A stretch of DNA of 64,000 nucleotides from Dillenia suffruticosa. Its lineage: Eukaryota > Streptophyta > Magnoliopsida > Dilleniales > Dilleniaceae. Each line of letters begins with the position of its first letter. The first letter of the stretch is position 1. The position numbers were made by a program, and so were the translations under genes. The stretch covers positions 16,829,674-16,893,673 of the forward strand of contig JAVTVX010000002.1 of the NCBI GenBank assembly GCA_033439265.1, written 5' to 3'. The notes beneath the pieces are model-generated. The model was not told the origin of the DNA, made no database searches, and saw only the letters and a list, made by a program, of their open reading frames with translations. Below are positions 24,701 through 62,300 of this stretch, in pieces.

Positions 24701-27700
24701 AAAGCAAACAGTTAATAAGGTAAGATAGAATTGCATGAAAAAAAATAGCATTTCCATGATGTGATGAAGCAACAAACATAAACAAACTCAGAGACAGAAC
24801 TCCTTGATGATTGTTGTAATGCACCAGATATCCATTATCAAATGCATTAACATTAATTAACCACGAGTCAAAAGGTGAATTTGTCACATCTCGATTGTCA
24901 CGAATTAACTACATGCCAAATAGTGGACTATAATCATAAGCAGACTTGCATTATATTTAAATCAAACTTCATACTGGAGAAACTATGTAGAGATGACCTT
25001 ATAAATTATATGACACACTGACCTGTATCCAAAGCTGAGATTGAACACTATCTCGAGATCCAGCAGTAACAATCCCACCCATAACTGGAGTAGAAGGAAC
25101 TTTTCCGCGCAGTGCAGGAATAGAGGATGAAGTTGCAGCACTCCAGTAGTCCATTCCAATATTTAAGTTTGTTGTAGGACCAGGAACACCCGGTGGACCT
25201 CCAGCTGCCATTGGCACCAAACTAATTCCTTGATTTAGCATTGTTGTTGTGGCAGGAAACCCATTCTGAGGACCATGCATGGAATTACCATTCTGGGATG
25301 TGTCAGCTGTAAGAAGGATATTGTTATATCTTTCATCATATAAAAGAACAAAGAAAAGGTTTATACCACAAGAAAAAATAATACAATTACAACAAACCTT
25401 CCAATGATTCTTGTCTGCCAGTCTTTTGCTGTGAGTCCTGCAGAAACAGCAAAGAAACTCGGTATGAAAATACACCCTATGTCCATTGCAGACAGTTGCC
25501 ACATGCTAGATTTTTAACATATCTGACATTAAATAAATAAATAAAATAGCTAAAATTAAATAAAAATAAAACAAAAAAACAACACTTGTGATTCATATTC
25601 CTGAAATGCTTTTCCATTTGGTAGCAGTTTCCCCTAAATAGTGTTATCCCTTTGGTGGAAAATAAAGAAACAATCTCATTAAAGCACATGGGATGCAACG
25701 CAAAACAAGAACTCAATACCACTATGCATACTAAACTGAATATACAATGTCTCAGATAGTATCATAATTGAACATAAGTTCCACAACACTTTTGGATTGA
25801 AAAAAGTGTCTGCAAAAAGGGTGAGAGAGATGTCTTAGAGGAGAGTCTGTTGACCATGCAGGTCATAAAGAGAAAAGGTAGTTCTAAATATTGTTATCAT
25901 ACATGATTATTTAACCTTAAAAGCCCTGTCCAGCAACAAAAGGGGGTTGGATGAGTGGATAGAGGAAAACATTCAAGCTAAACTGAGAATTAGGAACCGT
26001 AACCAAGACATCAAAAAGCATGCTTATTTTAACCTCAAAGCCTTTTGTAGCAACAAAAGGGGGTTGGATGAGTGGATCCCAAAAAATGCCCAAGTTCAAC
26101 TAAGATTTGGGAATTATAATTGAGCTATCAAAAAGCATGACTGGCTTCCTCTATCCCTTCAAAGATCCGAGATTCTGCCCCTCCAACAAAACCAGACAGC
26201 TAGATGAGTACAAAAAGTGTCTTCTTATCCGTCATCTATGAACTTTCGAGAACTACCACCAAGACCAAAGCCCAAACCTATTCCAATATAAGACCCCGAG
26301 CTGCATATTGTAAATATGAGGCAATTCTTAGATAGGCACCTAACAATTGCAAATACATGCTATTAACCGAAACAACCCATCTTCAGAGTTCTTTGAAGAA
26401 GAAATATCTCCCACTTTACATCAAACAACCCAAAAAGAAAGAAATATTTAAGAGAGAGAGAGAGAGAGAACACCAGCACTAACAAGAATCATGGCATCCC
26501 GAACAGCCATCACAGAAGCAATCTTCTTATCCCCACAGTGTAAAAAAATGAAAACAAAAACCACAACAACCAACTCCCATTGACACAGCCATCTTCTTCT
26601 CGCCTTCCCAACTAATTTAGCTACACCACTTCTGCCTCCATAGAATAGATTATAAAAAGTCCCAACCTTGATGCAAAATGACAAGGCAATCATTTTTCTT
26701 TTTGCATGATGTAATGCCATGCTCAGAAGTACCATGTGAATGTCCAGGTATTGGTCTATCTGTTCACAGTATTTGTCTTGTAACATATCCACAACAAGGT
26801 TTCAATGCACAATAACCATCAAATAATGCTGCTGATATTAACACACATGAATCACTAAGGAAGCATAAGCCCCATGATTGGGAATGATACTGCATGAAAC
26901 ATGAGTAAGGCAACAACATTGCAATTTCTTCATATATGATTACGTAAGAAAATATACATTTTTCCTGGCAATTGGACTTTAACCCACCATCAGCCCCAAA
27001 AAGCATCGGACAAATTTTAAAACTATAAAAGACATAATAGAACAGATAAACTAGGATCATCCCAAAATACATGGAGAAAATATAGGATTCAAATAGCATG
27101 AGACGATGGGAGAATTTATTCAACATCATTACCATTTCAAGAATTTTATAGCAGAATATCTAAACATTGGAAATTTGATGGTCATAGTCCCAGAATTAGA
27201 TGCAATAGCATTATGTTTCATCAGCAATATGTAACGGAACTAGTCATCATAATTGAAGCAGATATTGCTCTTGCAGGTAATGGTCATTCCATATCTCTAC
27301 GAGATCATCACATTGGAAATACATAGTTTTTAAATCATCATGGTCACAGCTACTTCCTCCCAGCCGTGGAAAACCAATGTAGGTCACCACTTTTAGCAAT
27401 TTAGACATTCAGCATGTTATTATATTAAAATCACATATTTGGGACTTCCAAATTGAAGCAGAACACTGAGATAATCTTGCACCAAATAGATTAGTGAAGC
27501 AGTTTTGGCCAGGAAAAGAGGTCTAAGGGTGGAAGGCTTAAGCTTATGAAGAGCACTCTCTGAAGTGTCCCCATATAGTATATGTCTTTATTTCCTATCC
27601 CATTCTCAGTAGCTGAAAAGATCAAGTCTATTCAGAGAAAAGTCTTGCCCAGAGAAGAACATGTTCAGTTTGTTAAATCGGGAGGCTATTAAACTCCCAA

Positions 27701-32894: not shown

Positions 32895-35301
32895 TCAAAA
32901 TCAAAACCCTAATAAAACAAACAGGAATTCAACAATTTGACAAAAAAAAAATAAAAAATGGCATCGTGACAATGGAGAATCCAAGTCAGCAAAAACAAGT
33001 ACCCCAATCGATTAAAACATGGATACGTGTTGGAGAGAGAGGGAAGGTGATTCGAATTATAGTAAAGAGTGAAGAAACTCTTTGTTTGAATCAGAAGTGG
33101 GATGGACAAGGGAAGATTCCGGAAATCAATCGATCGGATGGAAAATTAGGGCAAAATTCTAAAGAGATTTGACATTTTTGTTTGCGAATCGATTAAAAAT
33201 GCGAAAAGAAGATAGAGAGTTTTCGATTTGAACAAAATTAGGGTTCGTGTGTTGCGAAAGGATTGCGATTGTGGTCGTCGAGAGTCGTTGTCCAGAGAAT
33301 TTTTCTTATTATTATTATTATTTTATTTTAACGTGATTTCGAGGGGCTTTTTTGTTTTTTAAAACCTGCAGCTGTTCCTCCCTCTCTCTCTCTCGCTCTC
33401 CCCCGCCCCCCCCCCCCGCCCGGGAGGTAATTTTCATGGACCGGTTGGTCAAGCCGGGTCCATTACCGGGCAAGCTGATGTGGATCCACAACGCATTGAT
33501 TTTTTGAGGGGTTTTTATTTTTGTCTAAATATACAATAATGACTCTTTTTTGGGTTCAATCAGAGACTTCTTTGGGCGACAAGGGTAACCGTGCCTCGTA
33601 CGGTCACAATAAGTCATAATGCCCACTAATTGAGATTATATTAATTTGTGTAAAAATAATAAATTACTATCTTTATATATTTAAATAACTATAGTTGAGT
33701 GTTTTTTAATATCAAGATTTAATATTTAAATTTTTATAAATATATATAAAAATCATAAAATCTAAAATTTTTTGATCGATCGACTCTTAATAACCCACTT
33801 GTCTATCCAATATTTGAAAAATTTTGCAAATCTTTGGACGTGAGCAAAACGAGGCACATTTAGATTTTAATAAGTATTGATCAGACCCTTTGATGACATG
33901 ATTTAAAAATAATAGAAGTATGCAAAAACGAACAACCACTGAACTTAACCCTTGCTTTGTGAGACCACAAGGCTTGAGCTCAACAAGCTATAATTTTGAA
34001 AGAAAACTAATATCAAGTCTAATCTTAAAAAATTTTGACCCAAATGGAGCAAATCTACTTGTTAAAAAATACATGAATGATCAACCCAAAGGTGACTCGC
34101 TACATGGTTGGCTAATTAGGTCAAGTGGTCTCCACCCCAAAAAAAAAAGGGTCCTCGTGTCTAAATTTGAGATAAATATGAATTTTTTAAACTAAATATG
34201 CTACTCAGTCATGCGTAAATTGGGTCGGATTAAGTTTTTACAAAGTTTGATACACTTCGCCAAGATTACCGATAGATTTCGAGATTTAGCATAGTTATTT
34301 GCAAAATGCTTAAGTAACTCCGTTTTAAATGTTTTAGACAAAGTTAATTCAAAATTTCAAAATAAGATATAAGAAATAAAATCAATATAATATTACATTG
34401 TTGGATTCACATCAAAAATTTAGAGTATTATGTTAAGAAAATACTGATATAAAATTGATCTGAATTTCATAAATTTAAAAATTAATTGATAATTTTCATT
34501 TTTGAAATGAGTGTTGACGTTGATATCATTTTATTCGTTTTAAGCATTCTTTCTCTTTTTCAATAAATTAAGATCTATAGATAAATAGGATCCGAACAAA
34601 AAAAAGATCAAAATATACTTATTTACAATACAGTCCTTTATCGATCAAAATGGAAAAACTTAATTTAAAATCAATTCAACATACCACATGAATTGAATAG
34701 TGCCAAGATATGTGTGATTATATGGTGTATTTGTAAGGTTCTTGGTAGAGTGAGTTGAATGGAATCAAACTACGTAGAGGTTCAACCTATGTGTTTTTAG
34801 GGTTTTGTAGTCAGCCCAACAACTGCACCTTTTTTTTAGTTGGGTACAGGAAATGGAGAAAAGGGAACATGAAGAAAAAACCTAACGGAAGAATATAATT
34901 AAAACTCAACAAAATATTTGATCGGTCCAATAATCTTTAAGAAGGGGGACGGAAGAAGCAGACCCTTTCTTCTTTATTCTAGCCCAGGAGACCAAAAACT
35001 TCACTTTCTTGTATGTTTCTTCTTCTTCCTCTTCCCTCTGAGTTTGAGATGTCAAGAATTCATCGGACAATTGGCGGACATCACCATGAAGATAGATGAG
35101 ATTATATCCCTCAGAGTCGAATAAAGCATACAAAAATGAAGGGACACAAAAGCGGACCATCTTCGTGGAAAAACAAATGTGAATGGTACTGCCGTGGCCT
35201 ATGAAGGCCCCAAGACCAAAAATAGCTTGCAAGGCAACGGACCCTACCACTTGAATTACTTTATTTATTTATTTTTACTTCATTTCCAATTACAGACTTG
35301 T

Positions 35302-35318
35302 CACGTGACGGACACGTG
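35302..35318. promoter_or_regulatory. twin G-boxes (CACGTG x2) upstream of the DnaJ gene
   Basis: CACGTG at 35302-35307 and again at 35313-35318, with centres 11 bp apart (about one helical turn), 86-102 bp upstream of the ATG. Both are palindromic ACGT-core elements bound by group G bZIPs and bHLH factors. The motif spacing is seen directly; binding is inferred. Confidence 0.6.
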
Positions 35319-35403
35319 CTCATTATTCCCCGACGAACAAAATCGTCCCTCTCCCTTTGCCCTTTACCGCACGCGCGCGCTCTCTCTCTCTTGTCAGAAA
35401 AAA

Positions 35404-35859
35404 ATGGCGACGAAACCAAAAGAGGAAGAAGAAGCACTGCGACTGAAAACCCTAGCAGAAGAGAAATACAAGCTCTCCAACCTCAAATCCGCTCTCAAAT
35501 ACGCCAAGAGAGCACAGCGTTGCGCTTCATCTCTCGACAAAATCTCCGAAATGGTCACCGCCTTCACAATCCTCAAGGTCGCTTCCAAAAGATCCTCTTC
35601 CCAGAACCCTAACATCGATCGCGACTGGTACAAAATCCTCGACGTCGAACCCTTCTCTCACATTAACACCATCAAGAAGCAGTACAAGAAGCTCGCTCTG
35701 ACACTGCATCCTGACAAGAACCCTCTGGAAGCTTCCGAGGAAGCCTTCAAGCTCGTCGCGGAAGCCTTTCGGGTTCTCTCTGACAAGATTCGGAGGAAGG
35801 AGTATGATATGAAGCTGAGAATTGCTTTGCAGTCGGAGAAGGAGAAGACTGCTAGGGAA

Positions 35860-35920
<61 letters not shown>

Positions 35921-37296
35921 TTGGAGTAGGAACGTTTTGGACGGCGTGTTCGACTTGCCGTTTGCTGCATCAGTTTGAGAGGAAGTACGTTGGGCATAAT
36001 TTGATTTGCCCTAATTGTAAGAAGAGTTTCTTGGCTGTTGAAGCTGATGGTGGAAAGGATGGTGGTGATGATAATTGTGAAGGCGAAGATAAGGTTAGTG
36101 ATCAGGCTAGTCGTACGAAGAGTGTGAAAATGAGTAGTGTTGGAGAGGTTTTGGAGAGGTCAAGGACTAGGAATGAGAGTTTTGAGGTGGAGACTAGCGT
36201 TCAGAATAATAGGATTTTGAGGGATAGATCGAAAATTGGGGATTGGAAGACAAGGAAGAGAGAAATTGGATGGAATTCAGAGCCCAAAAGGGCGAAAATT
36301 GTCAAGGAGAAGACATTGGCGGAAATGCAATTGGAAGTTATGCAAAAGATGCAGAAAGAGAAATTAAAAGCCAAGGGAAAGGTGGTGAACGCAGCTCCGG
36401 CAAAAGTGGTGGAGAAGAAGGAGAAAGGAAGGAATGTGAAGGAGAAAGGAAGGGATGTGGAGAAAGAGAAGCAAAATGAGAAGAAGAGAAGTTCAGGATT
36501 GAGAAGTGAAGGAACGGAGATAATGGCAAAAGAGGATGAAAATAAGGAGAAGAGACGACGGGGGATGAAAAGTGAAGGAATGGAGATAATGGCTGTGGAA
36601 GATTCGGATTTCTATGATTTTGATAGGGATAGAATGGAAAGGAGTTTTAAGAGAGGACAGGTTTGGGCTGTATATGATGATGATGATGGAATGCCGCGAC
36701 ATTATGCATTAATTGATGAAGTTGTGTCTGTTTATCCTTTTAAGTCGAAGATGAAGTGGTTAGACCTTCAGACCAATGGCAACGAGGGGTTAATTTGTTG
36801 CGAAAGGTTGGGTATCCATATATCATGTGGTAGATTCAAGATTGCTAAGGAGACAATTGTTGATTCTGTAAATGTATTCTCACATTGTGTGGAGTGTGAA
36901 AGAGCCGCCCGGGAGCTTTACCGGATTTATCCCAAGAAGGGTTCTGTGTGGGCTCTTTATTATGAAGGCCCATTGGCTGTGGAAGGGAGAAATTCATCAG
37001 TTAAAGATAGTCGGCGATATGATATTGTTGTGGCTTTGACTAGCTATAGTGACATACATGGGTTAAGCATGGCATATCTTGAGAAAGTTGATGGGTATAA
37101 AACAGTATTTAAGAGACGGGAGGTTGGTTATAATGCTATTAGATGGATAGAGAAGGATGACGTGAGGTTCTTTTCACATCAAATACCTGCAAGGAAGCTT
37201 TCTGAGGCAGAGGCCCCCATTAAGTCTAAAGACTGTTGGGAACTTGATCCAGCTTCTCTACCTCCTGAATTGCTTACTGTTAGTGGGGGGAAGTGA
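35404..37296 (+). CDS. J-domain protein with zinc ribbon and DUF3444
   Basis: Intronless, 630 residues. Start: ATG at 35404 in an A-rich context; the frame is open further upstream but that part is promoter-like and CT-rich. The N-terminal helix (EEALRLKTLAEEKYKLSNLKSALKYAKRAQ) is typical of this plant class. The J domain spans about 72-137 (DWYKILDVEP to RRKEYD) with HPD at 102-104, which stimulates Hsp70 ATPase. A run of 21 Glu follows (152-172), then a zinc ribbon with CSTC (182-185) and CPNC (202-205). The middle is basic and Lys/Glu-rich, probably nuclear and disordered. DUF3444 covers about 400-610 (FKRGQVWAVYDDDDGMPRHYALI, then GSVWALYYEGP). The founding family is uncharacterised apart from the co-chaperone inference. 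The GAA repeat encoding poly-Glu may vary in length. Arabidopsis At2g35540, next to bZIP16 (At2g35530), is, as I recall, a related DnaJ gene, which would fit an ancestral bZIP-DnaJ pair. Confidence 0.93.
35857..35919 (+). repeat. coding (GAA/GAG)21 repeat, poly-Glu
   Basis: Twenty-one Glu codons, mostly GAA with three GAG interruptions, between the J domain and the zinc ribbon. Confidence 0.95.
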
Positions 37297-39445: not shown

Positions 39446-42400
39446 TCAATACGAACTCAATAATGGCTGCTTCATTACTCCTGACCCGAGATAAGGCATG
39501 TTCATGGATGCACTGGATGCAAACCACCCGAGCTTGTTCAGGAGTTCTTGGATCAGCTCACCAACTATATAACTAACACCTGAGCCTGAAACCGCAAGAG
39601 CAGCATAGTACATCACAGTTTTGATATAAGTTTTGGGTGGCTTTTGAACATGAGCCTTTCCTACTGCAAGCGCAATTATGCAAACAAAAGCAGCTCCAAA
39701 AACAGCAAGAAGCTTGTAATCTTTGTCACTATTGCTCTTGCGAAACAATAAGCCATAGGTGACTAGAGGAACCAAGCCAAAAATAATGAATGATAAAACA
39801 ACTACTACTGCATGAAGAATGAAGTTTTCTCTTCGGCCGAGTGTCTCTTGGTATTTGTCCACCTGTCCGTCTTGTTCATTGGAGGTTGTTCTAGTCTGGT
39901 CATTCTTCAGTTCCTTCAGCTACAATGCATGGAATATGAAGCCCAGATGATTGTCCACGAGGAAAAAAAAAAAAAAAAAACTCGAACACATTGAAAACGG
40001 CATGAGACCATTTTCCAAGTCACATCGGCTGTATGGTATTGAGGCATACTAAGAATCTTTGAAGATGCTTTGAAATTATATTTTCAAGTTCTCTTCATTG
40101 GGGAAAAAAATCAATCAACTTCTGGCCATATTGCAAATGTAAAAGTATTAAGAGTTTTGAATGGTGAACAATTTTATTATGTATAAATAACTTACATTGT
40201 GACCGATGAGCAAAAGTCCAGCGAGCAAATTTGCTAATCCCAGGGCCATAATATTCACTGCAATGTCCCAGAAAAGAAAGACATTAAGCAAGATGTGCAG
40301 CAGCAAGGAAGTGGATAACTTATTTGAACATAAATTTTTCATTATTGCATTCCGTATATCATAGTCGTAAGGATAAATGGTAATCGTGAGTAGTAGAACT
40401 TAGCCATCAACTTTACAATGATCACTAGGCATTATAACCTAGTTAATTTCCACTAATCCCTGGTTTCTTTGAAAGAAGACTAAGAGCCACATCAAAAAAA
40501 AAAAAAAAACAAAAAACATGTTATATCTGTAGAGGTGTGTGAAGAGGGTAAACAATTAATCTTTTAAACAATGAATAAAGAAGCGTTTGCGGCACCAAGG
40601 TCCACTTAATGGGACATTTCGTCTGGATTGACAAAGATGTGCTACTATTAGAGACCTAAACATTTTCTTGGATTGAAAGTATACAAACTAAATCCAGTGC
40701 TCCTTATATTAAAAAAAAAAAAATCCAGGTTTACTCCAAGGCTAAAAAACTATTAGTCTCATATCATGATGAAAATTGCAAAAAAAAAAACCTTTAATTT
40801 ACAAACTTAATAGTTCTTGTACTCATTTTCCTAAAATGACCAAAATGTGGTTGACAAATGACAATAAATTATCGTGTAGCTGAGCTCATCAAAGAATTAT
40901 ATCAATTAACTGCTACAGCCAATAAACACCAGGTGTAGTGATAACTTACAAGTAGAAGCATCAGCCCCAGCTGAGGATAAAACAATCCCTACGCTTGTAA
41001 TTGACTCAAGTAGACCACCATATACTAAGCTTTTCAGGATATCAAAGCCCTGCATTTCTCTGGCTTCAGCATGTTCATCCATATGAATCAGAGCAGAAGG
41101 CACATTTCCAACTTCTGGAGTGGCACTGTCTTCTGCTCTCTGAGAAGCTTCCACTGTTCCTCTACTTGTATCAATGATCAGTACCACATCTTTGCCTACA
41201 ACATTACAACAACTAACTTATTATGACAGAGTTGAGTTCTTATAGGTAAATATTGTACACAAGAGCTTAGTGTGAAAGTTGACAGCATCCATCAGTGAAA
41301 ACATAGGAAGAGTCCAGGAATCAGAAAGCAGGATTAACCATGTTTAGGATGCAAAAACACAATTGTTCTCTAGCTTTATAAGACCACAATAGTTATCAAA
41401 TGAAACCCACTAAGACAACAAAGAGAACAGTGCCACAAAACTACCGGTACTCTTTTTCACTTCAACATAACCATTCTCATCATTTTTAGTAAGGACTATA
41501 AAAAGATATTCCTGGGCATTAATACTTAAAATTGAAACAATTTGCATAGGTACCTTCAAGATCTCAGCTATTACCTTTATGCGGTCATCATATACCATTA
41601 GTTCTCCAAGAAATCGAAACATTGTTGGCAATATTTACACACAAAAAGAAGAGAAAGGTTGCAACTTCTTAGTTATCGTTAATATGGAGCAAGGTTAAAG
41701 TATGTATCTTTAATATTATATCCCTCTATTGCATATCCTAGTTTTTGGAAATTTGCCATATCCGCATACTTTTCCATGCTTCCTAGGCCTAAGTTTTGTT
41801 TTTCAGCATCTCAGGGGCCTTAGATAAGCACCCTTTTTACCCCTCCTGCTTCATCCTCGCGGTTGGCCATTTCAGCAGGATCATTGATTAATTCCAGATC
41901 TAGGATTGGATTCAAGGACGTAAATCTAGAATTAATCAATGATCCTGCTGAAATGGCCAAGGTAGGCACTGCACCAATTTGAAAGGTTCTATGCCAAGTG
42001 TAAAGGTTGTTTGGGATTTTGACATATTTGTCCCCAAGAACATTGCTCTTCCTGGGCACACCTTTAGAATCCAATCCACCAATGACATAAGATGATCAGA
42101 GGCAATTATAGCCAGCATTCATCAAATGGGTGAGATGCTTTTTTCTAGACACGAGTATTGATATGACTGCCTCAAGTTTCAAGGATACAGAAAGCATTTT
42201 GGGTAGGAACTCAGACAAATGAACATATACCAGCACACTGAAAATTTGTGTCTACCATTTTACAAAGAACTTTTTAGATTGTCAAAGGCTTACACTAAAG
42301 GCATTGTTTTGTAAGAGGGGAAATGATGGGGGTGTGCAGACAACTTAACATATACCAGCACGCTGAAAATTTGTGGCTACTATTTTGCAAATAACTTTTT

Positions 42401-45400
42401 GGATTGTCAAAGTCCCACACTTAAGGGCATTGTTTCGTGAGAGGGGAAATGATGCCCCCCTCCGTTGGGGGGGGGGAATAGATTGAGCCAGGATATGTGC
42501 AAATTTTACATCCCCATACACTGTACTTACAATCTGTATTGTCTGCATGTTGCATACCTAAATGCAATTAGCTCTAGGGTAAACAACCCAATCATCTAGA
42601 TTAGTCTCCTCAAACACTACTGAACAACACCATTTTCCCTCTCAGTTATGTGCCCGTCAAGCTTTCTATTTCTATGGCTTCCAAACATCATCTACCAAAA
42701 TCTATACCATGAGTTCTAACAAGCATCATTTTTTGTGATTCTCAAATTCAACATTTTTTCAAGAAAAAAATGCATTGATGTGACCCATAGGCACAGGAAT
42801 CAAAATTCTGGAGATGATGAAACAAAATGAGCACCTGAGGACAATTCTTGGAACTGTTAAGTTGATGGGTCCATTTCTGTACCCCTAACTGATCCCAAAG
42901 TGCTTGATTGTCCAATTTGCTTTGTGGTCTTGTGCACTCTTGTCTATCAAGTGTTCATTTCACTTCTTCATCTCCAGTATTTTAATTCCCAGGCCTATAA
43001 GTCGCGTCACATAGAATTCATGGTATGGGTCTTTTGGCAGATGATATTTGAAAGTTGTAGAGATGGAAATTTTGATGGGCACAGAGCTGACAAGGAAATG
43101 GTGTTGGTAGGAGATAAGTCTAGATTTTTGGGTTGTTTACTCTAGAGCTAATTGCGTTCCGTTTTTAAAATATGGAGAATGTGAGACAATAGCAATTGTA
43201 ATGACTATGTATGGCGATGCAAAATTTGCATATATCCTAGTTCAATATGTGATTGAAAGATAAAACAACTACCCCCGGGGGTTGGGGGATTATTTTCCCT
43301 CTTACTAAACATGCCCTTAGTGTGGGACTTTGACAATCTAAAACGGTCTTTGCAAAATTGAAGATACAAATTTCCGGTGTACTAGTAAGTGTTCAGTTGT
43401 CTGAGTTCCTGCCCAAAAGCTTTCTATTTGCTTGAAGCTTGAGCCGATCATATCAATGCCGATGTCAATAATTTTTTAATGCAGGGAGCTGAACTCTTAG
43501 CGACAAATGCATTGATGTCAGTTTTCTGGTGCTCATAGCTATAAAGGAAAAATATATGATCAATTTCTTCTAATTTTTCTTTTGTGGTATTTAGGTCATT
43601 GTCATTGCCTCCTGAGAAGTTTGGTCACTGTGGCTGTCCAGGGGATGGGTCTCAAGACATTAAGATGGACAAAAAAGCATTGTTATAATAATCTAGTTTG
43701 AACTTTTGATAGTATTTCTTTTCATTTTCTCTATTACCCTTTTACCAAGCAAAGAATCCAGTCACAATATAAAGATTTGAGTAACACTTAGGTATTTTGA
43801 ATAACAAGTATGCAGCTTTTTCAGTGGCATACCTTTGTTACCCTTGTCATCTTCAGATGTAATAATCTCAGTCACACTGAGACCCGCAGGCACCTTTTGG
43901 TAGGTAACTGATACATTTTGATCAGATGCAGAAAGAGAGTCTTTCTGAACTTGCACTCCCTTGGCCTCTGGTTTTTGAGGTACTGGCAACTCTGTCAGTT
44001 GTAAAGAGTGCATGTGAGAACCTAAAAACACATATCGAAAACAAGGATCACTGCATGTGAATTGTGGTACATTGTTTATTTCAGTGGCATACCTTTGTTA
44101 CCCTTGTCATCTTCAGATGTGATAATCTCAGTCACACTGAGACCCACAGGCACCTTTTGGTAAGTAACTGATACATTTTGATCAGATGCAAAGAGAGAGT
44201 CTTTCTGAACTTGCACTCCCTTGGCCTCTGGTTTCTGAGGTACTGGCAACTCTGCTGGTTGTAAAGAGTGCATGTGAGAACCTAAAAACACATATCGAAA
44301 ACAAGGATCACTGTATGTCAATTGTGGTACATTGTTTATTTCAGTGGCATACCTTTGTTACCCTTGTCATCTTCAGATGTAATAATCTCAGTCACACTGA
44401 GACCCGCAGGCACCTTTTGGTAAGTAACTGATACATTTTGATCAGATACAGAAAGAGAGTCTTTCTGAACTTGCACTCCCTTGGCCTCTGGTTTTTGCGG
44501 TACCGGCAACTCTGTCAGTTGTAAAGAGTGCATGTGAGAACCTAAAAACACATATCGAAAACAAGGATCACTGCATGTGAATTGCGGTACATTGTTTATT
44601 TCAGTGGCATACCTTTGTTACCCTTGTCATCTTCAGATGTAATAATCTCAGTTACACTGAGACCTGCAGGCACCTTTTGGTAAGTAACTGATACATTTTG
44701 ATCAGATGCAGAAAGAGAGTCTTTCTGAACTTGCACTCCCTTGGCCTCTGGTTTTTGAGGTACTGGCAACTCTGTCGGTTGTAAACAGTGCATGTGAGAA
44801 CCTAAAAACATATATCGAAAACAAGGATCACTGCATGCGAATTGTGGTACATTGTTTATTTTAGTGGCAAAACTTTGTTACCCTTGTCATCTTCAGCTGT
44901 AATAATCTCAGTCACACTAACACCCGCAGGCACTTTTTGGTAAGTAACTGATACATTTTGATCACATGCAGAAAGAGAGTCTTTCAGAACTTGCACTCCC
45001 TTGGTCTCTGGTTTTTGAGGTACTGGCAACTCTGTCGGTTGTAAACAGTGCATGTGAGAACCTAAAAACACATATCGAAAACAAGGATCACTGCATGTGA
45101 ATTGTGGTACATTGTTTATATCACTGGCATACCTTTGTTACCCTTGTCATCTTCAGATGCAATAATCTCAGTCACACTGAGACCCGCAGGCACCTTTTGG
45201 TAAGTAATTGATACATTTTGATCAGATGCAGAAAAAGAGTCTTTCTGAACTTGCACTCCCTTGGCCTCTGGTTTTTGAGGTACTGGCAACTCTGTCGGTT
45301 GTAAAGAGTGCATGTGAGAACCTAAAAACACATATCGAAAACAAGGATCACTGCATGTGAATTGTGGTACATTGTTTATTTCAGTGGCATACCTTTTTTA

Positions 45401-48400
45401 CCCTTGTCATCTTCAGATGTAATAATCTCAGTCACACTGAGACCCACAGGCACCTTTTGGTAAGTAACTGATACATTTTGATCAGATGCAGAAAGATAGC
45501 CTTTCTGAACTTGCACTCCCTTAACCTCTGGTTTTTGAGGTACTGGCAACTCTGTCGGTTGTAAAGAGTGCATGTGAGAACCTAAAAACACATATCGAAA
45601 ACAAGGATCACTGCATGTTACTTGTGGTACATTGTTTATTCCTGGTACAATTTGCATATAGCCAGTAGAAAAGAAGTGACAGACAAGGACAACAATGATA
45701 GCTAATGAAGACAGAAATATTCTGCTTATAAGTGTTTAAAAAGAAAGAAAAAAAGGGGTGATCTGAGTGTACAGTAAACTGCACCATCAAATTAATGAAT
45801 CAGGAGTCATGAAATGTCATATTATAGATCCAATTAGAGGGCTGACCTTTGCACTAGCAAAAGTGGGGAGGACAATCTAAGTGATCAATGGAAATTAACT
45901 GCATGAAGCTGACATTTGTGATGTTTAGAGGTATTGCACAATTGAGTTAGCTTTCCATTCTCCAATGCCCAATGTCATACGATCATATAGAATTTCATTA
46001 GCTATGATCACATACAGCATTGCCTTACTCCAAAATGGAGCCCTGTCCATGTTGGACACAATTTTGGACAAGACACTCATATGACATTTTGAAGACATGT
46101 ATTCGACCCATCTCATTATGTCCGCATTTTTTACATTTCAATTTCAACCAGACCCTTTCTTGATGCTTCTTTCACACTCAGAGATCATTTGATAAACATA
46201 AGTGCTCATAAGTTTGCAGATTAATTAGAAAGTTATAACAGAGGCGCATAAAACTCAAAATAAACCCATTGCTTGCCTAAAATGAACGCATACAAAGGTT
46301 TTTACAAGCAAATTGAATGCAGGTAATATCATGCTTATTAATGTATTTTTACATATGAACTAATATTTTGTATATACTTTTTTATAAGAATAAAGATATT
46401 AATGCACAAAGAAAATGCACCATGCACAACCAAAAAGAGGAGCAGAGATATGACTAAAGACATACATCCTCTTCATCCCTAAAAAACTGGTCAGTGGACA
46501 AAAAATAAAGAGAACAAAGTGAATAAAAAAACCAACAAGGTGTCTCTCTACACTCTCAAAAGTTTATAGCGCTATTATCTTTATAAACACATGGTATCAA
46601 TAATATATCTATCTGTTCTAACCTATCATTTTTCAACCTTTTGTGTTATTGTTTGTGTCGTGTCATGTCACAGGCACGGTGTTCATTGCTTACGACCCCC
46701 AAGATGCCATGGTTGGACAGGAAGTGCAGGTTCTTGTATTGTCATGGGTTGAGCTGATTGAGGAGTTGGTGTGTTGTTTAAGGTATGTGATGAATCCAAT
46801 GCTCCTATATTCATCACCTGCTGTTGCTCATTCCCTGTATGTTTCTTAATAATCTTCATTAAAGAAGAAGCAAAAGAATCTCAAAGCACTCCCAGAGTTT
46901 GCAATTGAAGTTGAAGGTGCTTTATGATTGACAGGAATGTTATTATAATGCTTTCATTTTCTCAGGACAAAAAGTGAAGGAAGCGTTACTAATCAGGTCA
47001 GAAGGAGAAGAAAGAAACTTCCAGAGAACGCCAAAATCTCAAGAAAAAATGGAGACAATAAAAAATGGAATTAAGCAAAATTTTCCAACCTCACTTGACA
47101 TCTTCTAGAGAATAATATTCGGAAATCCGCCCCCCCAACCTGACCCCCACCCCCAATCCATGTCTATCGAGACCAAACTAAAAAAAAAGGAAATCAAAAA
47201 ACAGCAAACTTGTGAGCAACAAGGAGAGCAGGCATCGTCACGCAATGGATCATGATTTACAAGAAATTAAAATCAGTCATCCAGCCAACTGTTTGGACAA
47301 CATCCACCCAGATATTCTACAAACATTTGTAAGATGGAGACAGAAAATAAATTCATATAAATAACAACTATTACAAGTCTACTCAGAATAAAGCATAGAT
47401 ATGAGCTGCAATAACAGCCCTTCTATGGTATGAAACTATTACGTGCATAAAGCAGTGCAAAAAGTGAAAAACTATCAAATATGAAAATTGCCTGCCAAGA
47501 TGACTGGCTGAATGCAAATTTGAAGCACTGCAGACAATGCATTACCTTGTTTAGACGCCATTTTCCCATTATCTGATTGAAATCTGGAGAAAAAATAATG
47601 AAAGATACTTCCTGGTCTCTGTTCGGACATTATGTTTTTATCCTCATTTTTATCCCCAAAACATCGAAAGAGTTTAAAACCACTTCCTGAAAAAAAAAAA
47701 ATAAACAAATTACCTATAATAGCAGAACAATAGTTTTCTTCCGATATCAAAAGAAGATAATCTATAGGAGCTCAGTGAAAGGAGAAGAATTTTCTCCTAA
47801 TAAGGAACCAAAAGAGGTCACGGAATTTGCATCATCTAGAGTGACATCTTTGGGAAAATACTGAAGGCAAGCACCACAAAGAAGCGAAGGACACTGTCAA
47901 CCAACATAAGTGAGAGGAGAATACTTGCTTCTCAATATTGTTTTCAGTCTTAATCAATCAACCTAATCCAACATTATCAAAAACCCCAATGCAAAAGTTT
48001 TGTCCTCTAATAGGGATGAACGCCCCTGAACTCTACTGTAAGAAGGTCTTGCCCTAAACCTGATGCCCATCAAAGATTCTGAAAAGTCTATTCTGTATGG
48101 CACAAGAGAAAATTGAAAAAAAACAAAAAAAAAAAAAAACAAAAAGAAAACAAAAAAAAAACAAAAAAAAAACAAAAAAAAAACAAAAAAGACATTGCTT
48201 CTGCAATGAATTGTAACCATTAATTTTATTAAAGACCATGGACCAACTCAAGTCTCACTTTTGGATGGGACCTCACTCTCCAAATTCTGTTAAGCAAAGG
48301 GAGTAGAGATACTTCTGAAAGTTTTAAGAGAGAATTAAATAATGTTTACAAGAGGTTAAACATTATATGAACTCCAAAGTCCAAACAGTCTTACCATGGC

Positions 48401-51400
48401 TAAATGAAGGATGAAAGCAATCTAACTTCAAGCAAGATGGGAAGATCTAAACTGCCCTTATAGCTGAGAATCTTGACAAAATAAATCTCAGTACATCAAA
48501 TTTCCATCACAGATCCAAAAGTTGGAAATTTGAGCATTATTTAGAGAAAAAATATAATATGGCTGAGAAAAAGCAATTAAGATTTGAACACAGTTAACCA
48601 CAGGTTTTCACTCGATGAAGTACCGTACAAAATCCTAAGAATGGTCGATTAATAAAATACCAGTTTGCACTTCCCACAGGAAAACTTTGTTGTGAATATT
48701 CAACCAAATCTGGAATTAAGGATGCCAGTTATAAAACCATTATTCTTGATAACAATTTCATAAATGATGTCTGAACTCAAACCCCCTTTGCGTAAAATAT
48801 TTGTCCCAATCCCTAAACCCAGCTTGAGTTTGTCACTCTCTCCAAGTTTCAGATTTGGTGAACTAATTGACATCTTCCTTCTCAAGTGGGGAGGAAGATT
48901 GTTTTAATTTTCAAAAGCTTAATAGCACATTTTCTAGATCAGTTTGACTTATAATTCGACATTTGTGGAAAAAGAGAAAATTTCATAGGCCTCAAGTAAC
49001 CTATACCTGTTGGAATAAAAATGGTGAAGCATGATAAACATCGGAATGCTTCTCGCTCTCTGACTTGATTGTTTTCATTAGTTGCATTTGCAGAATTACC
49101 ATCCAAACTTACATCAGCCGCATTGATATTTTGGTCAGTTGTTACATCTGCTGGGATAGGTTCCACCTTGGGGTAAATTAGGGGCTCAGGTCTCTCACGC
49201 TTCAAACCAAAGTGAATATCTTGAACTCTTCGCTTTCGTTTTCGTAAAATAACCCTTCTTGTAATACAGGAATTACAATTGGGACAGTACAAATCATGTG
49301 TATTCTGCTTTTCCAACACCTTCTCGACATCAAACTCTGCTATCTCACTTCCATTCTCTTTATTCAGACTGTTTTCATGCTCGACCTGTCCCTTGCCAAG
49401 AGACTTGGGATCAAAGATATGCATCCCCCTGGAAACTTCAGATGACAGGAAAATAAAATCATGGAAGATCTTATCATCCAAATATTCGCTATCTTGATGG
49501 GTGGTTGCAGCTCCTGTACCATTTTGTGCTTCAAGAGTGTTCACTATGATCTCTGAAGCATCATCTCCAGGATTTGTCTCAGGAATAGAACATTCTACAC
49601 TATCATATTTGATATCAGAAAACACAGAGGAGGATTCATCACCTGCAACAATGCAGTAAAAATCAGACTCAATAGAGCAGACTCAACTCATGTACTGATT
49701 ATTTAGGCAACCATTATCATTACATATGAAGAAGTAGCCAGACATGCTCATGTAAAATGCCCTTAGACTATCTCCAAAAATCTAATTAAATGTAAATACA
49801 ATGAGGAACTGACATTAAAGCTTCTAATCATTGATGGAAATTTTTTATGATAATAAGCACTTCCTCTTTAATGTGAAAGCAAAAAAGGAAAAAAAATGGT
49901 GATTAACCCATGAAAAAGTGCATTTGGTACACTATGGACACTAGTTGCGCCAATGAAGTCAAGCAAATATGCTACAGTATTTTCTTTTTCCATTTCAAAT
50001 CAAAGCATATGGCCTATCACACTTTTATTAGACTATATTGTCAAAATTTCCGGTGAATATTAACATATAAATCACCAAAACCACAAAAGTAGCTATACAT
50101 AAATTCTTGGAGGCCATAGAAAAACCAAGTCATGGGAAATCAGCTCTCTCTCATTCTCAACTATAAAATTAATCTGAACCTATTTTTACAAGCTTTGCTA
50201 ATTAACAATTTTATAGAAAACCATGTTATTCAATAATGAAACATACAACAATAACAACAACCACCAAACCTTTATCCCACTAAGTGAGGTTGGTTATATG
50301 GATCTTTTTACCTATCGTATTCTATTTCGTATCGCATGCTCACCTATATGATCATTTTCTTTATACGATAATAATTATACTTTTATTCCACTGTGGGATC
50401 GACAATATGTATATCACTATACTTTATCTTGTATTATATATTTGTCTATATTTAAATAATTTATGTTATGTTTTATTATCATTATCCAACTTTTTTTAGG
50501 TCTCTCTCTTCCTTGGTTAATATGAGTACTTATCATAGTCTCGCACCATCTAACTGAAACCTCTATCGGTCGCATATATACATGTCCACACCACCTTAAT
50601 CGTAGTTCTCTCAATTTTTTCTCGATAGGCGCAACCTAACTTTCTTCCTAAATGAACAAGTTAAACCATCCCTTTTGTCATTGTAAGTTTATATAGATAG
50701 TTGTTTTTTTTAATTTTTAATTATTCTATATTTGTTTCTCAAATGATCGACCCCAAAATTTGGGATTAAGACTCGGGTGGTTGTTGTTGTTGTTGTCATT
50801 TCTTATTTTGTCCATCATTGTGTGATGCACATCCACTTTAACATTCTCATCTCCGCAACTCTCATCTTTTGCTTGTACTTTTGGATCATTGCTCAACATT
50901 CAGATCCATACAATAAAATAGGTCTAATTACCATCCTATAAAATTTCTCCATAAATTTTGGAGGTTCCTTTCGATCATGTAGAATACCTATTTCACTTCT
51001 CCATTTTGACCATTCTACTTGTTTCTATGTGATACATCTATGTCAATTCTTTCATCTTCTTGTAAAATTGATTTTAAATACTTAAATTTACACATAATTC
51101 ATCATCTCTATCTTAACCTGCCTCACTAATGTTAGTATTGTTAAACTTAAATTTCATATATTCTGTATTTATTCTATTAAGTCTAAATCCTTTCCCTTCC
51201 GATATTTCCCTCCAAGATTCGAGTTTAACATTTATTCCTTCATGTGTCTCATCCACCGACCCAATGTCATCTATAAACAACAAAGACCATAGTACCATAT
51301 CCTAGATGTTTCTGGTGGCTTCATCCATAACTAGTGTAAAAATATACAAACTTAACGTTAACCCTTGATGTAACCCTATCTTTGTTAGAAACTCTACAAT

Positions 51401-52513
51401 TAATCCGCATGATATCCTCACTTTTATCATAATATCCTTGTACATCTTTTTTATCATTTCAATATACGCTACTATTACACCATTCTTTTCTAAAATCCTC
51501 CACATAATTTTCTTAAAAACTCTATTATATGCGTTTTCTAGGTCGATAAATCCCATGTGTAAGTCCTGCTTTTTCTCCCTATACACGTGATATTGATGAT
51601 AAGAAAAGAAATTGAAAATCAGGCATTGGAAGAACACCACGAAGCAAGAAAGCCCACACTCATATTTCACTCGATTATTAAGTTAAAAGCAAAATCATTT
51701 GGCTTTCTCTCAAAAACCCAATTAACCCCACCCCCCCCCCCAAAAAAAAAAAGATAATGAAATGCAGGGTTCGACAGCGCACAGAAGCGGAGTATGACCC
51801 AAATCCAAATTCGCCACGAGGGGAAAGGGAAAAAAATGGTTTGGCCAAGGGTATTATGGCCATTTGATCAAACCTTTTGTTTTTTCCTTTTTAGATTTTG
51901 CTATTCTCTGTTTCTGTGACCGTTCATCATACTGATTGGCTGAGAGGACAGATAATGGAATTTTACTTCTAAAGGGAAATAGTCGTAGAAACAAAGGAAA
52001 ATGAAAATAAAACTAAAAATAGAGTAAGATTTTGTTAGTATACTTCACTTCACACTATCGAAGGGGGAAAAAAAAGGATAAAAATTAGTATCCTGTTCAC
52101 CAACATAACTTCTTGAACTTCAAGGAAAAAAATAAAATAAAATGATTGCTCAGAAAAAAAAAGTACAAACCTGTTTGTTTGTCAAAGTAAACACTAGTTT
52201 CCTCCAATTTTCTCTCTTCATTGCCTCTCTCCACATCAACAATGTTTCCATTGTTGTTGCTCTGCGTCTCCTCCTCAGTTTCTTCTTCTTTACCATTCCT
52301 TTCTTCTACTACTTCTTGTATATCTTCCTTGGTGATTGATTCGACGTCAAATCCATTTCCGGACTCTGAAAGCGAGACGCTACTTTCACTGGAATCATTG
52401 GCAATTGATGGGTTTGTTTTGTTCTGATTTCTACTTTTCCTTCCAACCAAAGCTGCACCAATTTCTTCTTCTTCTTCGTCTTCATGATAAACCCATTGTT
52501 TTTCTTCCTCCAT
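39446..52513 (-). CDS. membrane protein of ER body-like (MEB/VIT-like) with a sevenfold repeated exon
   Basis: MEB1/MEB2 of Arabidopsis are ER-body membrane proteins related to Ccc1/VIT iron-manganese transporters. Exons on the minus strand: 52513-52171, 49642-49007, 47686-47546, seven 189-nt exons (45581-45393, 45321-45133, 45061-44873, 44801-44613, 44541-44353, 44281-44093, 44021-43833), 41495-41445, 41195-40950, 40257-40196 and 39919-39446. With all seven repeats the CDS is 1091 residues. The N-terminus is acidic. Residues 232-320 carry YCPNCNSC (Cys234, 237, 240), RVILRKRKRR and FRCLSCF (Cys316, 319), a zinc-ribbon-like pair conserved in MEB-like proteins; SGFKLFRCFG follows. The repeats cover about 374-814. 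The membrane part has LVYGGLLESITSVGIVLSS, ALGLANLLAGLLLIGH, LGRRENFILHAVVVVLSF and three more hydrophobic helices to about 1080, matching the VIT-like domain. All introns except the last are phase 1. The 51-nt exon and possible extra exons in 45640-47545 are less certain. Copy 3 (45061-44873) has a broken donor. Confidence 0.85.
41863..41960. repeat. perfect 32-bp inverted repeat (hairpin) in a MEB-like intron
   Basis: Arms 41863-41894 and 41929-41960 are perfect reverse complements (left arm begins TTGGCCATTTCAGCAGGATC). The pairing continues imperfectly inward for about 10 bp, leaving a loop of about 14 nt. It lies in the intron between the repeat array and the 51-nt exon. Confidence 0.92.
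42148..43466. mobile_element. fold-back (long inverted repeat) element
   Basis: Left arm about 42148-42717, right arm about 43012-43466, inverted and diverged (roughly three quarters identical by eye). Landmarks: AGGAACTCAGACAA (left) with its complement at 43405-43420; GATTGTCAAAG near 42402 and its complement; GCAATTAGCTCTAG near 42564 and its complement at 43146-43160; CCATGAGTTCT at 42708 and AGAATTCATGG at 43013. The left arm is longer because about 135 bp are tandemly duplicated (42222-42350 and 42352-42470). The loop of about 290 bp has a plus-strand RING-like piece VPLTDPKVLDCPICF. No target-site duplication was identified. Confidence 0.7.
43821..45640 (-). repeat. seven-copy tandem array of a 260-bp exon-bearing unit
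   Basis: Exactly 7 x 260 bp, no length variation between copies. Each unit contains, on the minus strand, an acceptor ending TTTTTAG, a 189-nt open exon and a donor GTATGCC. The exon starts with the last two bases of a Gly codon and ends with the first base of a Gly codon, so joining any copies keeps the frame. The peptide module (63 residues) has SHMHSLQ, ELPVPQKPEAKGVQVQK, SDQNVSVTYQKVP and TEIITSEDDKGNK. Copies differ by 1-8 residues. None has a stop. Confidence 0.95.
48117..48190. repeat. A-rich (CAAAAAAAA)n microsatellite
   Basis: Runs of 8-9 A separated by single C in MEB-like intron 2; on the gene's strand a T-rich tract. Prone to sequencing and alignment error. Confidence 0.9.
50240..51690 (-). 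mobile_element. decayed RTE-like LINE in MEB-like intron 1
   Basis: Minus-strand translation shows reverse-transcriptase remnants in order. 51590-51305: DLHMGFIDLENAYNRV, then GLHQGLTLSLYIFTLVMDE. 51300-51130: LLFIDDIG followed by DETHEGINVKLESWRE and FRLNRINTEYMKFKF. 51000-50810: CFYRM/LYGSEC-type and VAEMRMLKWMC region. 50614-50470: LRWCGHVYMRPIE and GRERPKKSW. The tail near 50240-50285, CCCACTAAGTGAGG plus (AAC)n on the plus strand, is the usual 3' end of such plant elements. Stops, frameshifts and FIDD in place of the usual Y/F-A-D-D show it is dead. 5' truncated; same strand as the host gene. Confidence 0.75.
50640..50800 (+). mobile_element. opposite-strand element tail nested in the LINE
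   Basis: The plus strand reads CCCCAAAATTTGGGATTAAG and then (GTT)n, ending about 50798. This resembles the 3' tail of another RTE-like copy, here in the opposite orientation and interrupting the LINE's C-terminal coding remnants. Short and degenerate. Confidence 0.45.
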
Positions 52514-59355: not shown

Positions 59356-62300
59356 ATGGGTTACGATAACGATCCGTACGTGCCTCTCTCTCCCCCCCAA
59401 ATTAGGGTTTCTGAAATACCTAATCTTGCTTCTTTCTTTGATTACAGATACAGAGACGAAGACGGAGAGCCGTTGATGGACTTCGACGATATCCAATCCG
59501 ACGGCGAACCTGAACGACACCAACACGTTCTTCTCGATGACGAAGAGGGTGATGATTGGCGCCTGCGAGATCGGTCTCCGACGCCGGTTCACGACTTCGA
59601 CGATTCATCATCGAAATCGAAGCCGAGAAAGCGATTGATCAAAAAGAGCGGTGGTAGTTCCAATCGGGATAGCTCTAGTGTTCCTAATGACTTCATCGAC
59701 GATTTCGATGACCAGCCTTCATTTGCGCACGATGAGTACGATCCTTCGTCGTCATCGCTGTTGAGCAAGAGGAAATTTTCGATGAAGGAGAGTGATGGTG
59801 GGAGTGGGAAGAAGAAGGATAAGAAAGGGAAGTCTGAGAGGAGACATGAAGGAAAGGGAAGTTCGAAATCGAGCTCAAAGTTCGGGATGAGCTCAAGCGG
59901 GAAAGATCACGAAGGTGATCCTGAGATGAAGGAGATGTGGGATACGATTGCTGGAAGCGATTCTGAGGTTTATTTATACACTTGATTGTCTTTGTTAACC
60001 ATTAGATTTTTGTGCATTATATTGAGTGTTAATTCTTGACATGCCATGATTTCACTAGTCAATATAGTGTATAATGTGTGGTTTGTTTTCCACTTATAGT
60101 TAAATAATTTGGCAAAATACCAAATAATTGGTCATGGGGTTTCGTATTAGATTGGTCTTGAAGATAGGGTTTTATTAGAAATTCAAGTTTGTGTAGTTGT
60201 TGATGTAGGGGAGCATTCATTAACTGTGATATTTCACTATTTTGGTACACATTAACATTATTGTGAATGTTTATGATTTCCCACTTATAGTTAAAAAAGA
60301 ATTCAGCAAATTATCAAGGAGTTGGAAATGGGGTTTATTTCATGTTGTTGTCTTTGTTAGTGCCGGGAAGGTGCATGGTTAGGGTTAAGGTGGATAATTT
60401 GCTAACAATTCTAATTGCTCGAACAAAATTGGGAAGATGAGTTTCATTTCATTTTTTTAAAGTTTAGTGTTTTTTTTTTTTGGTTGAATGTTTGTTTTGT
60501 AATTGTATTTATCTTTTGATGGGTGTATTTTATGTGATCCTTTTTATTTACACTGTATTTTTCTTGGTGTAGGATGACCAAGCAGGTGTGAGAACAGTGG
60601 ATGATGATAACTTCATTGATGATAGTGGTGTGGATCCTGCTGATGGGTACGGCAGTGACAACGAACGCTTTTTAGCTGATGCTCCTCAGGTTCGTTGATT
60701 ACTGAAGTTCATCTTCAATGACTTATCTTTGCTTTTTAAAATTTTTAAAATTTATTTTTATTTATTTATTTATTTATTTTTTGCTTATGGTCTGACATCT
60801 TTCCTGTATTGGATGTCTAGAGTTATCATATATTAATGATAGCATCATTAAGGTTTTTATGATTATAGTTGGTGAATGATGACTTTACTGCTTTGATCTG
60901 TATGTTCACATTGAAATGGTGGGTTTTTTTGGCGGAGATTTATTTGGTTTGGATGGCTTGTATCGTTGAAGTAGCCTTGAAGAGGTTGCATGTGTTCACA
61001 TTGAAATGGTGGGTTTTTTTGGCGGAGATTTGTTTGGTTTGGATGGCTTGTATCGTTGAAGTAGCCTTGAAGAGGTTGCATTATCTTCTGTTTTCAAGTT
61101 TATTTCTTATTATTGCTTTCCTTTGAGTAATATTTTATGCCTCTTCTATCCACCTTTTACAGTCTTTTAGTCCATGCCCAATAAGTTTGCTGTTAGGCTT
61201 ATGATTCTTCTGGTCTTTGGCAGGCTGAAGAGGAGGATGAGGATGAGGAAATTAATCGTCTCTTTAAGATGGGCAAGAAAAAGAAGAAAAATGAAAAAAG
61301 TGCTGCAGAAATTGCATTGGTTGTTGAGCAATTCATGGCAGAGCTTGAGGTTACTGCTGAAGAAGATGCAGAACTAAATCGACAGGGAAAGCCTGCTATT
61401 AATAAACTCAAGAAGCTGCCTCTTCTTACTGAAGTTCTCTCAAAGTAAGACATTCTATCCTGTGGAGACCTTATTTTTTCTTATAGCATTTTTATTTTCT
61501 TTCTTTATATGCTTTTCTACTTGATACAGGAAGCAGTTGCAACAAGAATTCCTGGATCATGGAGTTCTAACTCTTCTGAAAAATTGGCTCGAACCACTCC
61601 CAGATGGAAGCTTGCCCAACATAAATATCCGTGCTGCAATACTGAAGATATTAACTGATGTAATTTGCTGATCCCTTCGTTGATATGATGTTACTGTTGA
61701 TTAAGCTTTATGTGAAATCTGAATTCTTTTGCTGGCATCCAGTTTCCTATTGATTTGGAACAATATGATCGGAGGGAACAACTGAAGAAAAGTGGTCTTG
61801 GAAAGGTCAGGTGTCGATTAATGTGGTAAAACACTATTTGACAGCTGAAAATTGAATGCACCAGGTAGCTGACTGATTGACTTTTCATGCAGGTCATTAT
61901 GTTTTTGTCAAGATCGGACGAGGAGACTACAGCAAACAGAAAGCTTGCCAAGGATTTGGTTGATCAATGGGTAATCTATCATTTTTGTCACTTCTATGCT
62001 ACACAAGAAAATTGAACTGTGCTCCTTTTCACATTGCTTTGAGTCTCATCTTTTGAATAGTTTGTGTTAATTTGGTAATTGTTTTCCATTTCTTCTTTAA
62101 TGCTGATTAATGGCCATCGCCTTATGATTCTTGTAGGGGTGATGTAAATTCTTTCGGTCAAAATTTGTGCTGATCTGTTTTGATATGTTTTTGTGTATGT
62201 TGAATGCTTTTCTGGAAATTATACTGCATTTTTAAAAATTTGCTTGTGAAACTCTTCATAAATTATAATAATGTTGTTTACTTTTTTGCATTTTCTTTTG

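Follow-up and report, generated by a model that had tools for sequence, protein, structure and literature searches.

A tandem array of seven linker exons in a MEB-like gene of Dillenia suffruticosa

Background

Tandemly duplicated exons were found in about 10% of animal genes by a 2002 study, as cited in PMC9013439. A case which is close to the one presented here is piccolo b (pclob) of teleosts: as it is described in PMC3484663, one of its two paralogues carries a zinc-finger exon which is repeated in tandem 8 to 16 times. The number of copies varies between species; unequal crossover has been proposed and independent events have been suggested (PMC3484663). In humans, the kringle IV type 2 repeat of LPA is a coding variable number tandem repeat, polymorphic, with a unit of about 5.6 kb which contains two exons and codes for a kringle domain (according to PMC11201333). 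In this paper we describe an array of seven tandem exons in a plant, Dillenia suffruticosa. It is found in a gene similar to those of the Arabidopsis MEB proteins, for which PMC11922923 reports metal transport, location in the endoplasmic reticulum (ER) body or in the tonoplast, and rescue of the yeast ccc1 mutant. We have studied a window of 64,000 nucleotides (nt), i.e. the whole stretch of DNA analysed, which covers positions 16,829,674–16,893,673 of contig JAVTVX010000002.1 in assembly GCA_033439265.1.

We consider that the array is formed by translated spacer exons, which derive from the in-place amplification of one linker exon; we give to this reading a probability of about 0.7.

The array

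All coordinates refer to the window. The gene of interest lies on the minus strand, and the array exons are numbered r1 to r7 in the order of transcription. The features of the array are as follows.

43821..45640, minus strand: seven-unit exon-intron array, 260 bp each unit, determined by repeat finding and measurement of spacings
45393..45581, minus strand: array exon r1
45133..45321, minus strand: array exon r2
44873..45061, minus strand: array exon r3, donor lost (TTTTGC replaces GTATGC)
44613..44801, minus strand: array exon r4
44353..44541, minus strand: array exon r5
44093..44281, minus strand: array exon r6
43833..44021, minus strand: array exon r7

Tandem Repeats Finder detects a single array in positions 43819–45640, with a period of 260, 7.0 copies, 95% matches, 0% indels and a score of 3329. 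The six spacings between units are all exactly 260 bp, as it had been stated in the original prediction of this array. Within each unit a complete exon is flanked by intron sequence on its two sides. The seven exons have 189 nt each, are all open, follow an AG acceptor and start at a glycine codon, G/GT (a slash marks the splice junction). The introns which separate them have 71 nt each, and the phase is 1 on both sides of every array exon. The earlier description of seven open copies of a frame-neutral exon, joined through this glycine codon, is correct: the gene is open with seven copies or with none. It had also assigned an acceptor, an exon and a donor to every unit; this is true for six of the seven copies, but r3 has no GT donor. 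An in-frame internal AG/AG 30 nt into the exon and a GT 9 nt before its end are found in all seven exons.

The array is real: it is not a product of chance, since a paralogue has this exon too, in a single copy. The original observation is partly confirmed and its interpretation is partly supported. An origin of the array from a satellite or a transposon was considered and rejected: the paralogue has the unit as a normal exon, and two annotated proteins of D. turbinata contain it.

The paralogue and the related species

The D. suffruticosa assembly has 596 Mb in 37 contigs; the counts of matches in it are lower bounds. The module coded by the repeated exon has at least 8 matches: seven belong to the array and the eighth lies on C5. 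With the membrane domain as a query there are at least four matches, all of them at the array locus and at the C5 locus. The C5 gene is a paralogue, open across nine exons, which codes for 852 amino acids (aa); it has the same exon phases and a single module exon of 186 nt. Both flanks of the array align with both flanks of this single exon. Because the DNA on either side of the array aligns on either side of the single C5 exon, the array grew in place from one exon.

In D. turbinata there are two related proteins. P0001 (900 aa) has two annotated module copies and P0002 (863 aa) has one; the second module of P0001 begins at a place which matches the in-frame internal AG found in all seven window copies. 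With a one-module query both proteins far outscore the other relatives among the best 120 of 352 homologues. The DnaJ/DUF3444 gene which adjoins the array gene (open reading frame 35179–37296) has its best match in D. turbinata, with 92% identity. Since the neighbouring proteins match, we infer that the window is the locus orthologous to the P0001 gene of this closely related species.

A search of 5.8 billion proteins with the module alone, which had been suggested together with the original prediction, returned only P0001 and P0002 out of 8 candidates. Homologues of the module outside Dillenia were considered and rejected: the other proteins among the 120 listed MEB relatives match at E 0.15 or worse. 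Relatives outside Dilleniaceae have no recognisable module among the matches listed. The four genes of Dilleniaceae considered here have 7, 2 (annotated), 1 and 1 copies: the number differs between related genes, as it had been proposed, but through these values and not through the whole range of 0–7.

Origin and divergence of the copies

The seven units differ in 41 columns, with no indels: 38 columns are singletons and 3 are informative. One of the latter is shared by r3 and r4, one by r5 and r7, and one by r1 and r6; in this column r1 and r6 retain the state of the C5 outgroup. In the coded protein MHC is present in r3 and r4, whereas LQLT is found in r5 and r7. These shared variants had been noticed before, and they are present as stepwise growth would leave them. 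The tree of the copies is poorly resolved, with bootstrap values from 26 to 68 of 100. Some singletons match the outgroup: column 87 in r6, columns 137 and 158 in r3, column 180 in r7 and column 24 in r6, the latter in a poorly aligned stretch. They are a hint of exchange between copies, or of repeated change.

The mean divergence among copies is 4.8% in the exons and 4.7% in the six internal introns; the introns of the two genes differ by about 12%. Because of this difference between 4.7% and about 12% in introns, the array is younger than the gene pair, yet it is not new. The 5' module of P0001 has the sequence PVGL and its 3' module has PAGL; in the window r1 has PVGL and r7 has PAGL. This match suggests that two module copies may have been present before the species split. 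Where the units join, about two bases (AA, read by eye) are common to the ancestral flanks, therefore the first duplication would have needed little homology.

The gene and its protein

Besides the array, the gene contains the following exons.

52171..52513, minus strand: exon e1, with the start codon (open frame, donor CAG/GTTTGT; aligns to D. turbinata P0001/P0002)
49007..49642, minus strand: exon e2, contains the cysteine motifs CPNC/CNSC and CLSC, which resemble a zinc ribbon by eye only (splice sites, homology)
47546..47686, minus strand: exon e3, linker (splice sites, homology to P0002)
46694..46834, minus strand: exon e4', a remnant of linker exon e4, 141 nt (tblastn and alignment to the C5 paralogue)
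40950..41195, minus strand: exon e5, end of the linker and start of the VIT-like membrane domain (splice sites, homology)
40196..40257, minus strand: exon e6, VIT-like domain (gene model)
39446..39919, minus strand: exon e7, VIT-like domain and stop (homology; Ka/Ks 0.18 versus the paralogue, where Ka and Ks are the non-synonymous and synonymous divergence)

The earlier gene model was not complete, as it had overlooked the remnant e4'. The introns from e1 through e5 are all in phase 1, and for this reason the spliced frame is open with 7, 6 or 0 array copies. The predicted protein has 1074 aa with seven copies, 1011 aa with six (r3 skipped) and 633 aa with none, open throughout. The frame also stays open when e4' is added or when r3 uses the donor found at −9.

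The one-module query gives 352 homologues at E≤0.001, and many of the best 120 are annotated as membrane protein of ER body-like. Homology covers both the N-terminal part with the cysteine motifs and the C-terminal membrane domain. The gene had been described as MEB/VIT-like, in agreement with this homology and with the VIT1 structures found as top matches: in a Foldseek search with the model of P0002 the top two are 6iu3 and 6iu4 (E 6e-3), and none is found at E≤0.001. The Pfam VIT1 profile gives 24.9 bits (E 2.1e-5) with the array-less form of 633 aa, the cut-off being 28.1, and P0001 carries a precomputed PF01988. A profile search of solved sequences gave no match at E≤0.01. By analogy with the Arabidopsis MEB proteins, the protein coded in the window may be a metal transporter.

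The AlphaFold model of the single-copy protein P0002 has a mean predicted local distance difference test (pLDDT) value of 45.5 and a predicted template modelling score (pTM) of 0.37; no residue reaches a pLDDT of 90. Five long helices are found in residues 643–835, with block means from 53 to 84. The module is modelled as coil with values below 50: it looks disordered.

The lost donor of r3

The exon end of r3 is AAG/TTTTGC, versus AAG/GTATGC in the six other copies. Its intron has five differences from the consensus, two of them in the donor (+1 and +3). Three outcomes were computed. Skipping of r3 keeps the frame and leads to the protein of 1011 aa. Splicing at the GT 9 nt upstream also keeps the frame and gives 1071 aa, while with the GT one base upstream the frame is broken and 28 internal stops appear. 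A faster change of r3 after the loss of its donor was considered and not accepted: this copy has 11 of the 38 singleton columns, with a one-sided p of 0.015, which becomes about 0.10 when multiplied by seven for picking the most changed copy.

Lost linker exons and linker length

Two extra linker exons, of 282 and 165 nt, separate e3 from the module exon in the C5 gene. Of the first one only a 5' remnant with a frame change of 2 nt is left in the window, and it is followed by a deletion of about 1.3 kb. When compared with the C5 paralogue, this deletion takes the end of e4 and the entire next linker exon. The remnant e4' is followed by GTAAGC, and it becomes a phase 1-1 exon of 141 nt if this donor is used. 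The D. turbinata protein P0001 retains both of the linker exons which are deleted in the window.

The length of the linker, taken between the CLSC-type motif and the membrane domain, could be measured in 104 of the 120 listed relatives: it varies from 138 to 472 aa, with a median of 359. The paralogue has 322 aa. In the window the linker has 109 aa without array exons, 487 aa without r3 and 550 aa with all of them. With the remnant e4' and no array it has 156 aa, within the family range. In the predicted protein the array more than compensates for the lost linker length.

Repeats are also found in the linkers of relatives. The linkers of 108 of the 120 proteins were compared with themselves by the Smith-Waterman method with shuffles; 12 proteins without the membrane-domain motif were skipped. 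In 38 of the 108 the repeat score was more than 25 above the best of ten shuffles; these 38 include isoforms of the same gene and low-complexity stretches, so their number is not that of independent events. Clear single blocks, given as identities/columns, appear in Nelumbo (78/100), Protea (71/71), Cornus (47/62), Actinidia (38/59) and Liquidambar (91/175). Two annotated isoforms of Actinidia eriantha (P0005 and P0007) differ by a block of 62 residues. Those of Nelumbo (P0038 and P0039) differ by 103 residues, with a repeat period of 104. In both genera the isoforms are predictions, known from proteins alone. Protea cynaroides P0053 has two identical 71-residue blocks (71/71) in the linker, residues 425–566: a very recent duplication is possible, and so is an annotation effect.

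Selection on the module and on the gene

Among copies the average Ks is 0.085 and the average Ka is 0.040, a ratio of 0.47. This comparison had been proposed with the original prediction, which assumed coding constraint between copies: the ratio is below 1, but the constraint is weak. Non-synonymous changes are 18 of the 30 distinct changes, or 21 of 33 when shared changes are counted per copy. With expected non-synonymous fractions of 0.77, 0.73 and 0.70, the constraint test gives p values of 0.028, 0.084 and 0.159; the constraint is not significant when transition bias is allowed for. The absence of stops in the copies is uninformative, because only about 4% of random changes would create one.

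When the two genes are compared, the module has Ka/Ks values of 0.43–0.82, e2 has 0.70 and e3 has 1.42, the latter on 2.5 synonymous and 15.5 non-synonymous differences. The value of 0.18 in the membrane exon e7 indicates that the gene has been kept since duplication. As estimated from these ratios, the module is a weakly constrained piece of linker, and the membrane part of the gene is kept.

Explanation of the array

In the reading which we prefer, one phase-symmetric linker exon of a VIT-type metal transporter gene of the MEB subfamily was duplicated in place. The duplicated piece included about 59 nt of the preceding intron and 12 nt of the following one; growth to seven copies then took place in one of two paralogues, presumably by unequal exchange. 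Six or seven modules would be spliced in and translated, while r3 would either be left out or use as its donor the in-frame GT which lies 9 nt upstream. In the resulting protein a longer disordered spacer would separate the cysteine-motif part from the membrane domain, and the exact copy number would be tolerated rather than tuned. Some observations weigh against this reading. The splicing of the array exons into mRNA is predicted from DNA alone. The donor of r3 is gone, and splicing at the closest GT, which lies one base upstream, would break the frame. The weak constraint on the module (Ka/Ks 0.47; p 0.03–0.16) means that the exons could be partly unused, and the poor overall model of P0002 is weak evidence for disorder. 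Finally, the five singleton columns which match the outgroup are found in different copies: one simple tree fails at some sites.

A rather unlikely extension is that the array was kept after the deletion of the linker exons as its modules restore the distance from the cysteine part to the membrane domain. It is compatible with the preferred reading, but makes length a selected feature. The deletion is mapped, the 109 aa left without the array are fewer than the minimum of 138 in the 104 relatives, and both lost exons persist in P0001, which has 2 annotated modules. However, the remnant e4' would bring the array-less linker to 109 + 47 = 156 aa, inside the family range, and the 487–550 aa predicted with the array overshoot the maximum of 472, which is more than restoring the range; the weak constraint on the module is also unfavourable. 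Equally doubtful is that the linker has regrown longer through multiplication of the adjoining 260-bp unit, with an adjustable number in which any copy, r3 included, is frame-neutral. If it were true, MEB-like genes would repeatedly renew their linkers through tandem duplication of exons. We give less credit to a cluster of alternative or mutually exclusive exons, with one or a few copies chosen per transcript to form isoforms. Frame neutrality, the in-frame alternative donor and acceptor dinucleotides of all seven copies and the annotated Actinidia and Nelumbo isoforms without one block would agree with it, but exons which differ by 4.8% on average would make the choice alter little. Exons in phase 1 permit any number of copies per transcript. 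The array might also be a by-product in a gene copy which decays after gene or genome duplication, as the lost donor of r3, the frame change and deletion in e4 and the Ka/Ks of 1.42 in e3 could indicate; the modelled exons are open and e7 has a Ka/Ks of 0.18, so that decay appears improbable. Least credible of all is a multiplication of the unit as an assembly artefact: each copy has at least one private difference, with 38 singleton columns among the seven, the array is contiguous in an assembly of 37 contigs, and in the orthologue, too, the annotation shows more than one copy.

Other repeats in the window

The intron between the array and e5 contains two inverted repeats. One of them, 42197–42304 / 43311–43418, has arms of 108 nt with 83% complementarity and spans about 1.2 kb. 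It probably predates the gene pair, since the intron of the paralogue gives inverted alignments to this stretch. The other one, in 41863–41960, has arms of 40 nt with 95% complementarity and a loop of 18 nt. In the DnaJ/DUF3444 gene (35857–35920 and 36463–36593) there is a run of about 21 GAA units, which codes for consecutive glutamates, together with a 66-bp repeat present twice, with 78% matches. Two other direct repeats are present: a 90-bp sequence found twice in 60903–61081 (98% matches, score 351) and a 117-bp repeat, also twofold, in 25902–26140 (74% matches).

Comparison with known systems

Among MEB proteins, MEB1–MEB3 of Arabidopsis have a VIT-family membrane domain as in the window gene; a repeated linker exon is not mentioned in the passages of PMC11922923 which were consulted. 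In a literature search of openly licensed papers, none was found to deal with repeated exons of MEB-like genes. The original prediction that no case had been described in this family agrees with this search, but tandem blocks do occur in the same linker of other MEB-like proteins: those of Cornus, Actinidia, Nelumbo, Protea and Liquidambar, with 59 to 175 columns. There are two blocks in each of them, known from proteins only, and their sequences do not match the Dillenia module significantly. In Actinidia and Cornus the likeness to it is limited to the position and size of the blocks.

The likeness to LPA, as this gene is presented in PMC11201333, is that the unit holds exon and intron, so that copy number alters the length of the protein. 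The window unit differs by its size of 260 bp and its single exon, and it is known here from one assembly. With piccolo b it has in common that one exon has been amplified in tandem in one paralogue, while the other paralogue is unamplified. The repeated units are of a different nature: the exon of piccolo b codes for a zinc finger and belongs to a synaptic gene of animals, that of the window is a disordered-looking linker exon of a plant transporter-like gene. The window array is also unlike piccolo b by its 71-nt introns, by one dead donor and by the deletion of neighbouring linker exons.

The locus is a compact case, in which exon amplification, loss of a splice site in one copy and loss of neighbouring exons are visible together. 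It raises the question of how the spliceosome copes with a row of seven near-identical exons separated by very short introns, and also that of whether the length of the linker matters in MEB-type metal transporters. Amplification of a single exon in one paralogue is already known from piccolo b; the Dillenia array differs from it by its small linker unit, its short introns, the dead donor and the adjoining deletion.

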